Below are positions 37,578-42,106 of a stretch of DNA of 64,000 nucleotides, one piece after another (positions within the stretch are counted from its first letter, which is position 1; each line of letters begins with the position of its first letter). A model generated the notes under the pieces. It was not told where the DNA came from, made no database searches, and worked only from the letters and a program-made list of their open reading frames with translations. A program made the translations under genes and the position numbers. Origin of the DNA: Acidobacteriota bacterium (GTDB taxonomy: Bacteria > Acidobacteriota > Thermoanaerobaculia > Gp7-AA8 > JAHWKK01); contig JAHWKK010000010.1 of NCBI GenBank assembly GCA_019347945.1, forward strand, positions 1-64,000, written 5' to 3'.

Positions 37578-38300
37578 TCAGCGCACCTCCAGAACCACCA
37601 CCGTCAGGTCGTCGCTCTGGATTCCGTTCGAAAAACTGTCAGCCCCGGCGACGAGCTCTTCCGCAATCGATTCCCGATCGGAGCCTTGCAGGATGTCGAG
37701 GACTCTCTGTTCTCCTATCTCTTCTCCGTCAGGCGAAGTCGCCTCGATCAGCCCGTCGGTGTACATCACGAGCCGGTCGCCCCTGCGGAGCCTGAACGAT
37801 TCCTCACGCCAGAGCGAGACCGGAAGGATTCCGACGACCGGACCGGTCGAGGGAATTGAGACCGTCGAGCCACCGCGCGGGCCGGCAGGGGACGGCTCGC
37901 TGACGAGCAGAGGCGAAGGATGACCCGCATTCACGATCGTCATGTTCAGACGTGAATCGATCCGTCCGACGATGGCCGTGACGAACCGGTTTCCCGGCAT
38001 CTCCCGCACGACGACGTCATGAATGCGCGCGACCAGCTCGGCGGGACTCGACGAAGCGCACTCGAAAATCGCTCGATCGAGCTCTTCCTTCATCAGCGCC
38101 CCCAGAAGAGACGCACTCAGCCCCTTCCCCGCGACGTCGCCTACCGCGAACCAGAAATCTCCGCCGACCTCCTCGGTGAAGTAGAAATCACCGGTGAACT
38201 CGCCCGCGGGAATCGAGATCGCGTCGATGCCGATGTCGGGCGGACGAACCAGCACATCCGGGTGCGGAACCGTACGGGGAGCGAGTATCGTCTCAGGCAC
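37578..38300 (-). CDS. SpoIIE/RsbU-type PP2C serine phosphatase
   Basis: This 240-residue protein consists almost only of the PP2C-SpoIIE domain: GGDFWFAVGDVAGKGLSASL (metal-binding aspartates), then NAGHPSPLL, VMYTDGLIEA and a final SDDLTVVVLEV. Such enzymes dephosphorylate anti-sigma-factor antagonists. It has no sensor, PAS, GAF or HAMP domain. The GTG at 38300 overlaps the end of the anti-sigma/methyltransferase fusion gene by eight bases and follows GGAG, so the two are likely translated together. The open frame continues upstream inside the neighbour, but that part is a shadow. It has no visible anti-anti-sigma (STAS) partner. Confidence 0.88.
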   Translation of the reverse strand: MPETILAPRTVPHPDVLVRPPDIGIDAISIPAGEFTGDFYFTEEVGGDFWFAVGDVAGKGLSASLLGALMKEELDRAIFECASSSPAELVARIHDVVVREMPGNRFVTAIVGRIDSRLNMTIVNAGHPSPLLVSEPSPAGPRGGSTVSIPSTGPVVGILPVSLWREESFRLRRGDRLVMYTDGLIEATSPDGEEIGEQRVLDILQGSDRESIAEELVAGADSFSNGIQSDDLTVVVLEVR

Positions 38301-39189
38301 TCGCCGTCTCCGGCATGCATCGGAGGCAGGCGCGAAAACCCTTTCGGGCGGCGTCCTCCGCGCTTCTGAACGGAACTCGGTTCTCCTCCCGGATCCTGCG
38401 CGCGTCCCTGCAGGAGGGGAAGCAGTAGATTCGCGTCGTGGCGGAACCGACGAACCGTACGCCCTCCCGCGCGAGCGAATCGAGAAGCTCGATCGGTGCC
38501 CCCTCGGATCGAAGGACTCTCCGCTTGCGATCAGGGCCGAATGCATAGTTGCCGACGCCGCCACTCGACGGGACGACTCTGTGGCAGGGGAGGACGAAGG
38601 GCATCGGATTGTTCGCCATCACGTTGCCGACGGCCCGAATCGCCCGAGGACGGCGAACCGCGCGGGCCACCCAGGCATAGGGCCGGACCTCACCTCGCGG
38701 AATCTTTCGGATCGTGGTCAGCACATCGCGCTCGAACTCGGTCAGTCCGCTGAAATCGATTGCATCGAGTCCGATCGGGAGCCCGAGCATCGCCGCTTCG
38801 ACCGACTTGCGGCAGTTCTCCGGAATCGGCGCGCGTCTCAACTCGCGCCCGAAACGCTTGCGGTAGCGCTCGCGAAAATCACTTTCATCGGCAGCGGCGA
38901 TGTCGACCATGCGGAGACCGGCGCTCGAGAATGCCACCCAGACGCGGTCACCATCGAGATCGAACGAGTCGTAAGAATCGAGGACCGAGCTGCAGACACG
39001 TTCGGCGAGCGACTCGGAAGGGGAGTGACGAAGTGAGCGGGCGAGCGCGGCGAATCCCTCGAGATCAGTGACTGATTCCTCGCAGCTCGGGCAGTCGTCG
39101 AGATGCTGACGGATGCGGTCTCGATCCTGCGAATCGATCTCATCGGTGCGCATCGCATCGATATGCGTCAGCACGTTTCGGCATTGCAT
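38293..39189 (-). CDS. Anti-sigma (ZAS) - O6-methylguanine transferase - Ada zinc domain fusion
   Basis: This 298-residue protein of unusual architecture has three parts. Residues 1-40 form a zinc anti-sigma motif: C3, H29, C33, C36 (H-x3-C-x2-C). Residues about 80-235 form an Ogt-type O6-alkylguanine-DNA alkyltransferase with FSGLTEFERDVL, an RAVGNVMANNP segment and the active site P201-C202-H203-R204-V205. Residues about 243-293 form an Ada methyl-phosphotriester domain with C256-x3-C260 and C288-x2-C291 (IYCFPSC, RACLRCMP). In E. coli Ada the zinc domain is N-terminal and followed by an AraC-type HTH; here it is C-terminal with no HTH. The ATG at 39189 has a GGAGAGG site and lies inside the end of the sigma gene. 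Confidence 0.9.
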   Translation of the reverse strand: MQCRNVLTHIDAMRTDEIDSQDRDRIRQHLDDCPSCEESVTDLEGFAALARSLRHSPSESLAERVCSSVLDSYDSFDLDGDRVWVAFSSAGLRMVDIAAADESDFRERYRKRFGRELRRAPIPENCRKSVEAAMLGLPIGLDAIDFSGLTEFERDVLTTIRKIPRGEVRPYAWVARAVRRPRAIRAVGNVMANNPMPFVLPCHRVVPSSGGVGNYAFGPDRKRRVLRSEGAPIELLDSLAREGVRFVGSATTRIYCFPSCRDARRIREENRVPFRSAEDAARKGFRACLRCMPETASA

Positions 39190-39821
39190 GATTGAGCCTC
39201 TCCTTCCGAGAGCGCTGCTCTCAACAACTTCAGTGAACGGAAGACGCGGCCGCGAAGAGCGGATTCGGTCTGTCCTGTGCACTTTGCGATTTCCTGATAC
39301 GACATCTCTTCCATGAAACGGAGCACGATCAGCTCTCGGGCATCGTCGGGAAGCGACTCGATCGCGCGCTCGAGCGCGTCCCTTTCCTCCCGCGCCTCGA
39401 CGATTCCGGTCACCGATATCGCCGGGACTAGCGGGCCGATCCTCCCGTCGTCGAATTCGGAGAGCGGACGCTCCAGATCGTGATTGTGACCGCGCCGCCG
39501 GTTGAGCGACAGGTTACGTGCAATCCGAAAGAGCCATGGCTTGAGCGCCAGCTCTCGAACGCGGCGGCCGTCGTACTGGCTCGTGAGCGCGTGGTGTGCA
39601 CGAACGAATGCGTCCTGCACGACTTCCTGCGCGTCGAGAGGACTCTGGAGCAGCCTGTTCGCATAGTTGAAGAGCGAGGTCTCGAACCGCGCGACCAGCC
39701 GCTCGAAGGCGCCGTCCCGTGATTCATGTACGGCGAGGGCGAGTTGTTCGCTGTCAGCGGTCAGAGCCGTTCCTCCTGTCCAGGTGCTTCTCACAATCTC
39801 AGTAACACGGCATCGGGCCAT
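39168..39821 (-). CDS. ECF-type RNA polymerase sigma factor
   Basis: This 217-residue group IV sigma factor has a region 2 (LFNYANRLLQSPLDAQEVVQDAF, with the -10 recognition part WLFRIARNLSLNRRR) and region 4 (LPDDARELIVLRFMEEMSY, QEIAKCTGQTESALRGRVFR). It has no region 3 domain. Its gene overlaps the anti-sigma fusion gene by 22 bases. The first 19 residues before LTADSEQ do not look like sigma sequence. AGGAGG sits seven bases upstream of a CTG at 39764, so translation may begin there. It is divergent from the ABC ATPase gene, with which it shares about 55-110 bases of upstream DNA. Confidence 0.93.
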   Translation of the reverse strand: MARCRVTEIVRSTWTGGTALTADSEQLALAVHESRDGAFERLVARFETSLFNYANRLLQSPLDAQEVVQDAFVRAHHALTSQYDGRRVRELALKPWLFRIARNLSLNRRRGHNHDLERPLSEFDDGRIGPLVPAISVTGIVEAREERDALERAIESLPDDARELIVLRFMEEMSYQEIAKCTGQTESALRGRVFRSLKLLRAALSEGEAQSCNAETC

Positions 39822-39876
39822 CGCGTTCGCGCTTCGGTCCGGACCCTCCGCGCCACCATTCTGCTACGCTCGCGAG

Positions 39877-40617
39877 GTGGCGTCCGAGATCATTTTCGAC
39901 GAGGTCGGGTACGAGGCAGGTGAAACCACGATTCTTTCCGGAATCTCGATCGCCATTCACCCCGGCGAGACCGTCTCGTTCATTGGTCGGAGCGGCGCCG
40001 GAAAGACCTCGGCGCTCCGAATGATCAACGGGCTCCTCTTCCCGACTGAAGGAGCTGTCACCATCGATGGTGAGACGACTAAAGAGGTGGATCTCATCGA
40101 GCTGCGAAGGCGGACCGGCTATGTCATCCAGGGAACGGGCCTCTTTCCCCATCGGACCGTTTTCGACAACGTTGCCACCGTCCCTCGACTCCTCGGATGG
40201 GAGGAGGGGCGCGTGGCACTCGAAGTCGATTCGATGCTCGAAGCCGTCCGGCTTTCGGCGCCGAAGTACCGCTCGCGGTTTCCCCGGAGCCTGTCGGGGG
40301 GCGAGAGACAGCGCGTCGGGATCGCCCGTGCACTCGTCGGCAAGCCGGACATTCTCCTCTGCGACGAGCCGTTCGGCGCGCTCGATCCGATCGTTCGTCT
40401 GGAGCTTCAGGAGCTCATCAGAGACCTGAAATCGCGCCTCGGAGCGACGGTCGTGTTCGTCACCCATGATCTGACCGAAGCGCTGCGGGTCTCGGATCGG
40501 GTGCTGCTGTTCGAGGCGGGAAGCGTCGTCGTCGAGGCGACGACCGCGCAGTTTCTCCAGTCCCGGGTCCCCCTGGCCAGAACGTTCATCGACGCGGCGG
40601 GAGTCCGAGCATCGTGA
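39877..40617 (+). CDS. Osmoprotectant-type ABC transporter ATPase (OpuCA/ProV-like)
   Basis: This 246-residue ATPase has Walker A GRSGAGKT (37-44), the signature LSGGERQR (139-146) and Walker B LLCDEPFGALD (160-170). It energises uptake of quaternary amines such as glycine betaine or choline. Unlike many OpuCA proteins it lacks the C-terminal CBS domains. The GTG start at 39877 puts the protein at the usual N-terminus, where IIFDEVGYEAGETTIL begins the nucleotide-binding fold. The permease gene overlaps by four bases. Confidence 0.93.
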   Translation: MASEIIFDEVGYEAGETTILSGISIAIHPGETVSFIGRSGAGKTSALRMINGLLFPTEGAVTIDGETTKEVDLIELRRRTGYVIQGTGLFPHRTVFDNVATVPRLLGWEEGRVALEVDSMLEAVRLSAPKYRSRFPRSLSGGERQRVGIARALVGKPDILLCDEPFGALDPIVRLELQELIRDLKSRLGATVVFVTHDLTEALRVSDRVLLFEAGSVVVEATTAQFLQSRVPLARTFIDAAGVRAS

Positions 40618-41240
40618 CGGGGGAGCTCGGCGCGCAGATCATCCGGCTCACCCTCGAGCACATCCGGATCGTCGGGATCGCGGTGATCGTGGCTACCATC
40701 ACGGGGATACCCCTCGGTCTCTGGTGCGCGACCGGGACGATGGCAGGGCGCGCGGTGCTGCGTGTCGTCGACGCCGTGCAGACAGTTCCGTCATTGGCCA
40801 TGTTCGGCTTCCTGATTCCGGTCCCGTTCATCGGAGGAATCGGAACGAAAACCGCGATCGTCGCGCTCGTTCTCTACTCGCTCCTCCCGATCGTCCGGAA
40901 TACGGTCATCGGAATCCGGGAGGTCGACCCCGATGTGAGGGAGGCCGCCGTCGCGATGGGTATGACCACAGGTGAGGTGAGGCGACAGATCGAGATTCCA
41001 CTGGCGCTGCCGGCGATCATCGGTGGTGTCCGGCTCGCGGCGATCATCGGGATCGGTGTGGCGACGATCGCCGCGGCGATCGGAGGTGGTGGGCTGGGCG
41101 ATTTCATCTTTCGAGGAATCGCGATGGTCGACACGACGCTACTGCTGGCAGGGGCGCTGCCGGCCGCCGTGCTCGCGCTCGCCGCGGACCTGATTTTCAC
41201 GCGGATGGAACGAACGATCGCACGAAGGATGGGCCGATGA
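40614..41240 (+). CDS. Osmoprotectant-type ABC permease (OpuCB-like)
   Basis: This 208-residue inner-membrane protein has about five or six helices and the EAA-type cytoplasmic loop EAAVAMGMTTGEVRRQIEIP that couples to the ATPase. The opening region IPLGLWCATGTMAG and the PSLAMFGFLIPV segment are typical of betaine/carnitine permeases. It starts with GTG overlapping the ATPase stop, and its stop overlaps the start of the substrate-binding gene. Confidence 0.92.
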   Translation: MTGELGAQIIRLTLEHIRIVGIAVIVATITGIPLGLWCATGTMAGRAVLRVVDAVQTVPSLAMFGFLIPVPFIGGIGTKTAIVALVLYSLLPIVRNTVIGIREVDPDVREAAVAMGMTTGEVRRQIEIPLALPAIIGGVRLAAIIGIGVATIAAAIGGGGLGDFIFRGIAMVDTTLLLAGALPAAVLALAADLIFTRMERTIARRMGR

Positions 41241-42106
41241 CGCGGTTCATCTCGATCACTCTCCTCGTGATCTCGTCTGCACTCGGATGCGCCGAGGCCG
41301 GGCGGGACCGCATCGTCGTCGGATCGAAGAACTTTACCGAGTCGGTGATCCTCGGGGAGCTCGTTGCGCAGACGCTCGAAGCATATGGGTGTGCCGTCGA
41401 CCGAAGGCTGAACATGGGAGGGACCTTCGTCGCCAACAGCGCTCTGCGGTCGGGGGACCTCGATGCCTATCCCGAATACTCCGGAACCGCACTGACGGCA
41501 ATCCTCGATCATGAGCCCGTCATGGACCGTGAAGAAGTGAGGAGAATCATCACCGAGGCGTTCGAGCGCTCCGGGATTGAGTGGAGCCCGGATCTCGGGT
41601 TCGAGAATACGTTCGCGATGCTCGTGCGGGCAGAGGATGCGGAGAAACACTCGCTCCGGACCATCAGCGACCTCGTGCGGGTACAGGAAAGCTTCCGGCC
41701 GGGATTCGGATACGAGTTCGCGGACCGCGCGGACGGATGGCCGGGACTGCTCGAAGCCTATGGGCTCGAGTTCTCGACGGCTCCACGGACCATGGATCTC
41801 GGATTGACCTACCGGGCGCTCGAGAGCGGCGAGGTCGACCTGATCGCGGGCAACTCGACCGACGGCCTGATCGACAAGCTCGGCCTCGTCATGCTCGAGG
41901 ACGATCGCGAGTATTTTCCGCCTTACGATGCCGCAATCGCCTACCGCGCCGACATCGACGGGAAGTGCTCCGGAGCGAGCGGCGCTCTCGACGGGCTCGG
42001 CGGAGCCATCGATGAGAGCGAGATGCGCCGGATGAACCACGCCGTCGATGCGGAAGGCCGCACGCCCCCCCAGGTCGTCAGAGAATTGCGCGACCGATTG
42101 GAGTAG
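41237..42106 (+). CDS. Osmoprotectant-type substrate-binding lipoprotein (OpuCC-like)
   Basis: This 289-residue exported protein has a lipobox-like ALGC (C18). It is of the OpuAC type, with an opening IVVGSKNFTESVILGEL and the fold elements DAYPEYSGTALTAIL and LGLTYRALESGEVDLIAGNS. It binds a compatible solute and delivers it to the permease. The ligand (betaine, choline or carnitine) cannot be decided; I did not trace the aromatic-cage tryptophans or tyrosines. It ends the three-gene operon and is convergent with the ferritin-like gene. Confidence 0.93.
   Translation: MTRFISITLLVISSALGCAEAGRDRIVVGSKNFTESVILGELVAQTLEAYGCAVDRRLNMGGTFVANSALRSGDLDAYPEYSGTALTAILDHEPVMDREEVRRIITEAFERSGIEWSPDLGFENTFAMLVRAEDAEKHSLRTISDLVRVQESFRPGFGYEFADRADGWPGLLEAYGLEFSTAPRTMDLGLTYRALESGEVDLIAGNSTDGLIDKLGLVMLEDDREYFPPYDAAIAYRADIDGKCSGASGALDGLGGAIDESEMRRMNHAVDAEGRTPPQVVRELRDRLE

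Follow-up and report, generated by a model that had tools for sequence, protein, structure and literature searches.

The window analysed here, a 64,000-nucleotide stretch from a soil acidobacterium, encodes an ECF sigma factor followed by a sensor protein in which a zinc anti-sigma (ZAS) domain is fused to an Ogt/MGMT methyltransferase domain and an Ada metal-binding (Ada-Zn) domain. The pair, which is conserved in many bacteria, appears to be a different solution to the task of the classic Ada response to alkylation. The adaptive response to alkylation is the textbook example of sensing through repair and, to our knowledge, has so far been described only with DNA-binding activators (Ada, AdaA and Cada2). 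Here it appears to be joined to a ZAS anti-sigma factor, a combination not described in the literature searched, and sequence comparison supports this interpretation in outline, with a mechanism that is a proposed one. If true, this sigma/anti-sigma version would mean that the same irreversible methyl-transfer signal has been adapted to a different type of transcription switch. A possible role for an uncharacterised ECF group would also emerge, together with an explanation of how alkylation repair may be regulated in members of several phyla.

Table 1. Features of the sigma/sensor operon (window positions)
Feature	Position	Strand	Details
ECF sigma gene	39168..39794	-	208 aa from GTG; Pfam Sigma70_r2 and r4_2; conserved N-terminus
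ZAS-Ogt-Ada_Zn sensor gene, predicted anti-sigma factor	38293..39189	-	298 aa
Zinc anti-sigma domain (C3, H29, C33, C36)	39079..39189	-	Residues ~1-37, then helix to ~53
Ogt/MGMT domain, acceptor C202	38500..38985	-	Residues ~69-230; PF01035
Ada metal-binding domain (C256, C260, C288, C291)	38308..38466	-	Residues 242-294; PF02805
SpoIIE-type phosphatase gene, third and optional operon member	37578..38300	-	PF07228, E-value: 2e-40; start GTG 38300
Predicted autoregulated ECF promoter, CGAACG-N14-CGTGTT	39804..39829	-	9 nt before sigma start GTG

The sigma gene precedes the sensor gene, whose start overlaps the sigma stop (Table 1). An earlier note, made from the DNA letters, had described a 298-residue sensor next to an ECF sigma gene with a 22-base overlap, and the gene coordinates and Pfam matches bear this out. 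Its sigma start at 39821 was wrong. This ATG falls inside the conserved promoter (39804-39829), so GTG 39794, which aligns with the starts of all relatives, was adopted instead. From there the protein begins with a pattern common to its relatives (M/V-K/R-N/S-S/T-W-T-G-G) and has the sigma2 and sigma4 domains of an ECF sigma factor, without sigma3. The sensor start is settled because some clades offer only one possible ATG. The SpoIIE-type phosphatase gene overlaps the sensor stop, such that the operon reaches 37578; a gene of this type comes next in 10 loci, those of the window and nine relatives. Divergent from the operon is a glycine-betaine-type ABC transporter operon (39877-42106; ABC_tran, BPD_transp_1 and OpuAC).

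Three Pfam families match the sensor: zf-HC2 at residues 3-36 (23.0 bits, barely above the cut-off of 22.2), DNA_binding_1 at residues 151-230 (94.3 bits) and Ada_Zn_binding at residues 242-294 (48.9 bits). The N-terminus also matches the NCBIfam RsrA model (E-value: 4e-7) and an NCBIfam anti-sigma model (E-value: 2e-6), and a profile built from residues 1-75 matches RsiW, an anti-sigma factor of solved structure (5wuq; E-value: 0.0011). This N-terminal helical domain carries the features by which ZAS (ASDI) proteins are recognised, an H-x3-C-x2-C motif with an upstream Cys ligand. The gene also lies directly beside an ECF sigma gene, with the sigma upstream in 22/22 cases. The AlphaFold model of the fusion (mean pLDDT 91, pTM 0.75) places four helices in the N-terminal unit (residues 3-8, 10-14, 20-32 and 34-53), at slightly lower confidence. 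In structure comparison, VIA aligns residues 69-232 with the methyltransferase domain from the C-terminus of Ada (1sfe, Z 16.8), and Foldseek pairs the C-terminal part of the model with the methylated N-Ada/DNA structure 1u8b (38% identity) as well as with the N-Ada structure 1wpk. The Foldseek and VIA lists include no anti-sigma fold for the N-terminus, but they are taken up by matches to the Ogt domain.

The Ogt domain has the PCHR acceptor motif and the catalytic residues of an Ogt/MGMT protein. Residues Y171, R185, N194, C202, H203, K222 and E229 are invariant in 35 sequences, some of them without ZAS; we take their counterparts in human MGMT to be Y114, R128, N137, C145, H146, K165 and E172. 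The four cysteines of the Ada domain have a spacing of 4/28/3. The sensor thus has the metal-binding domain of an Ada-type regulator but not its AraC/HTH part: Pfam and NCBIfam scans of the sensor found no HTH family, and the model leaves no space for one.

The ZAS-Ogt-Ada_Zn fusion is found behind an equivalent sigma in 22 acidobacterial genomes of four families, 17 from one order (the window's own included) and five from two other families. Because 22 genomes carry this fusion, a sequencing or assembly artefact is ruled out. Conserved homologues with this domain order, whose absence the earlier note had held to count against its reading, accordingly exist beside the sigma. Within the order of 17 genomes, the full-length fusions are 44-54% identical to the window protein and the partner sigmas 52-59% identical. 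The two genes overlap by 11 nt in most loci and by 22 nt in the window, while one locus has an 87-nt gap. The residues singled out by the earlier note (the ZAS ligands, P201-C202-H203-R204-V205 and the Ada cysteines) are present as claimed, and in the alignment of 17 fusions the PCHRV motif and all nine key Cys/His residues (C3, H29, C33, C36, C202, C256, C260, C288 and C291) are invariant. The four Ada cysteines and the Ogt acceptor remain invariant in 35 sequences with identity down to 29%, ZAS-less sensors included. In the sigma tree, the ZAS-type sigmas form one clade (support 100/99). A single origin of all sensor-linked sigmas is not shown by this tree, in which the other sigmas fall in several clades.

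A dyad search of the upstream regions found CGAAC-N16-GTGTT directly before the sigma start in 22/22, where the best dyad in shuffled sequence reaches 2-3/22. Such a conserved -35/-10 promoter is expected of an ECF sigma gene and is predicted to be autoregulatory for the sigma operon. With 9 nt between the -10 element and GTG 39794, the transcript would have almost no leader. In the window's own 3.72-Mb genome the strict pattern has a single match, before the sigma operon, and hence this genome has no predicted repair-gene target besides the sensor; strict, one-mismatch and relaxed searches for a repair regulon there gave only the sigma operon and chance-like sites. A related promoter pattern has 38 matches over 17 genomes, compared with five for the mirrored control. 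The promoter is also located just upstream of a PF06718 (DUF1203) gene in all six related genomes that possess one, and DUF1203 proteins may have a role in the alkylation response that has gone unrecognised. The window's own genome encodes a canonical Ada (Ada_Zn-AraC-Ogt) as well, and its gene is divergent from a DUF1203 gene (L189:2931-4650; G000:C8 ~110430-112150). A sigma promoter was sought between these two genes, but none was seen.

Related sensors without ZAS exist as well. In a genome scan, Ogt-Ada_Zn proteins turned up immediately after ECF sigma genes in Chloroflexi, Pseudonocardia, Frankiales and Rokubacteria, and also in one Dehalococcoidia genome, one Holophagae genome and other acidobacterial families. 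An ATGA overlap between the sigma gene and the ZAS-less sensor gene is frequent. Strong sensor matches are present in 37 of 346 Actinomycete genomes, with an ECF sigma just upstream in 28 of the 30 loci read; most of the sensors sampled there are Ogt proteins that carry a short N-terminal extension but no Ada-Zn. The architectures form a graded series (Ogt alone, Ogt with Ada-Zn, and ZAS with Ogt and Ada-Zn) of which the window protein is the fullest form. Because ZAS-less sister sensors remain paired with a sigma, the general design does not depend on ZAS. These sensors have a short N-terminal helix ahead of Ogt and no recognisable anti-sigma domain. The helix is the sole candidate for sigma contact in these proteins, a weaker step in the argument, and a structure model of one such sensor (pLDDT 72, pTM 0.44) is too low in confidence for use.

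The link to alkylation repair comes from these sister systems. In two Pseudonocardia loci (L054 and L058), the sensor gene is followed by an AlkB-like gene (PF13532), and a third Pseudonocardia locus has a second Ogt and a nucleic-acid 2OG-oxygenase (PF09859). A promoter with the pattern GCAACC-N14/15-GKGTTC is common to the sigma genes of Pseudonocardia, Frankiales and Chloroflexi. This pattern was derived from sigma upstream regions and then used to search whole genomes, where both L054 and L058 have it ahead of a second Ogt gene and L058 also has it ahead of its run of oxygenase, sigma, sensor and AlkB genes; these sites played no part in defining it. This promoter sharing is the strongest evidence for an alkylation-repair regulon probably controlled by the sigma family, and it concerns the sister systems rather than the window's genome. 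Because AlkB, 2OG-oxygenase and second Ogt genes adjoin the sigma or bear its promoter in Pseudonocardia, the predicted tie of the sigma/sensor family to alkylation repair is well supported.

The proposed model for the sigma/sensor pair, which we consider probable, is an alkylation-damage response in which the fusion holds the sigma and irreversible self-methylation during repair frees it. Without damage, the ZAS domain of the sensor and the helix that follows it would keep the co-translated ECF sigma from RNA polymerase, as ZAS homology, operon layout and the overlapping genes suggest. O6-methylguanine and methyl phosphotriesters are products of methylating agents. C202 of the Ogt domain and C256 of the Ada-Zn domain would accept methyl groups irreversibly, a role to which the invariant catalytic residues of both domains point. 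The sensor, altered by methylation or by engaging damaged DNA, would then let the sigma go. As each sensor molecule serves once, the number of methylated sensors would count lesions. Free sigma would fire CGAAC-N16-GTGTT promoters, among them that of its own operon, providing more sensor for both repair and renewed silencing, and in six relatives the predicted DUF1203 promoter. The Actinomycete and Chloroflexi sisters would work from an equivalent layout without ZAS, and in Pseudonocardia their predicted targets are Ogt, AlkB-family and nucleic-acid 2OG-oxygenase genes. Counting against the model are the marginal zf-HC2 score, the sigma pairing of sensors that lack ZAS, the single strict promoter and the canonical Ada in the window's own genome, and a sigma tree that does not unite all sensor-linked sigmas. 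The sigma-switch interpretation had already been put forward in the earlier note. Comparative evidence upholds its conserved ECF sigma/ZAS-Ogt-Ada-Zn wiring without an HTH and its tie to alkylation repair, while the binding of the sigma and its methyl-triggered release are steps that we infer. On balance we also lean, with some reserve, towards a broader reading: an anti-sigma factor with covalent, suicidal methyl-DNA repair as its input would constitute a second, sigma-based adaptive response in Acidobacteriota, Chloroflexota, Actinomycetes and Rokubacteria, in which a methyl acceptor frees the sigma and DUF1203 is a new alkylation-response gene.

The methyl acceptor that serves as the trigger may be either cysteine. 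In E. coli Ada the switch is the Ada-Zn cysteine, and by this analogy the switch had been placed at the first Ada cysteine; C256 stays a candidate. C202 is at least as likely, because most sampled Actinomycete sisters are Ogt-only and because the PCHR cysteine is the transcription switch in Caulobacter Cada2, where C267G is constitutive and C267A is dead (PMC10957082). As most actinobacterial sisters possess the Ogt domain only, the ancestral system may have been triggered through the PCHR cysteine.

The same observations bear on other roles for the sensor. It could be a partner or co-activator of the sigma instead of its inhibitor, such that methylated sensor binds the sigma or promoter DNA and aids transcription while ZAS is a docking module only. 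Both Ada and Cada2 act positively with RNA polymerase, and the short helix before Ogt in the ZAS-less sisters would fit such a role, as would the listing of ECF122 among groups without cognate anti-sigma factors in a review (PMC8999054). This alternative is nevertheless unlikely. The sensors of the window's clade begin with a domain that can be recognised as anti-sigma and whose four zinc ligands are invariant, a sigma gene followed and overlapped by its regulator gene is how sigma/anti-sigma pairs are usually arranged, and the sensor lacks an HTH.

Zinc-thiolate sites of ZAS domains react with oxidants, as established for RsrA and ChrR, and the C3/H29/C33/C36 ligands could likewise make ZAS a redox or thiol sensor of electrophiles. 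Ogt and Ada-Zn would then be the repair output, with stoichiometry kept by autoregulation. Such a role is quite improbable. Sensors without ZAS stay sigma-paired, so Ogt/Ada-Zn should be the conserved sensing element; the acceptor cysteine is invariant where ZAS is missing, and no RsrA-like extra reactive cysteine is conserved in the ZAS part of the 17 aligned fusions. It is more improbable still that there is no signalling at all and that a repair enzyme is merely co-expressed with an unrelated sigma, ZAS being a vestigial or structural zinc finger. Although Ogt and Ada-Zn are repair modules with intact catalytic residues, this explanation is opposed by a strict pairing that is seen in 22 genomes and recurs in Chloroflexi, Actinomycetes and Rokubacteria, by the autoregulatory-type promoter in 22/22 and by the promoter common to sigma, Ogt and oxygenase genes in Pseudonocardia.

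With release of an ECF sigma by a methylated sensor as the preferred reading, the fusion invites comparison with systems already described. Its Ada-Zn four-cysteine and Ogt PCHR methyl-acceptor modules are also those of E. coli Ada and B. subtilis AdaA/AdaB, which combine suicide repair with transcription control and positive autoregulation, as is predicted for the fusion. Unlike E. coli Ada, the fusion has no AraC/HTH part, its domain order is reversed with Ogt ahead of Ada-Zn, and its output would pass via an ECF sigma instead of a DNA-binding activator. Cada2 resembles it in the proposed switch by PCHR-cysteine methylation and in its direct-repair regulon (PMC10957082), but lacks the Ada A-box and has HTH domains for DNA binding, whereas the fusion has ZAS and Ada-Zn and no HTH. 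RsrA, ChrR, RsiW and RslA share the N-terminal H-x3-C-x2-C motif with an upstream Cys ligand and the gene position directly after an ECF sigma. The fusion differs from them in that the sensory part behind its ZAS is a DNA-methyl acceptor, and no description of such a sensory part for any anti-sigma factor was found in the literature searched.

The earlier note knew of no described system with this wiring. This holds for the ZAS fusion and its mechanism: the literature searched (primary ECF reclassification excepted) contained no description of a ZAS-Ogt-Ada fusion or of an anti-sigma factor with a DNA-repair input, nor did the literature searched describe the sigma promoters or DUF1203 as a target. 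The fusion, its promoter and its targets thus appear to be undescribed. It needs qualifying with regard to ECF122, in whose neighbourhood 6-O-methylguanine methyltransferases are noted by a 2022 review citing the ECF reclassification (PMC8999054). The review's passage on ECF122 treats this as genomic context, gives no cognate anti-sigma factor, calls the mechanism unknown and does not mention a ZAS or Ada-Zn fusion. What ECF122 shares with the window's pair is an ECF sigma with an MGMT-type neighbour.

Some sister loci encode variant sensors. In an acidobacterial locus (L135, genome G230), the ECF sigma gene is followed by a gene for an Ogt protein that lacks Ada-Zn and has an N-terminal domain of ~50 residues without zinc ligands or a match in Pfam. 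This N-terminal domain is perhaps a zinc-free anti-sigma variant. In two Actinomycete loci (L288 and L289), PCHR and Ada-Zn are intact and the neighbouring Ogt residues are eroded; these sensors may serve in sensing only, through the Ada-Zn cysteine.
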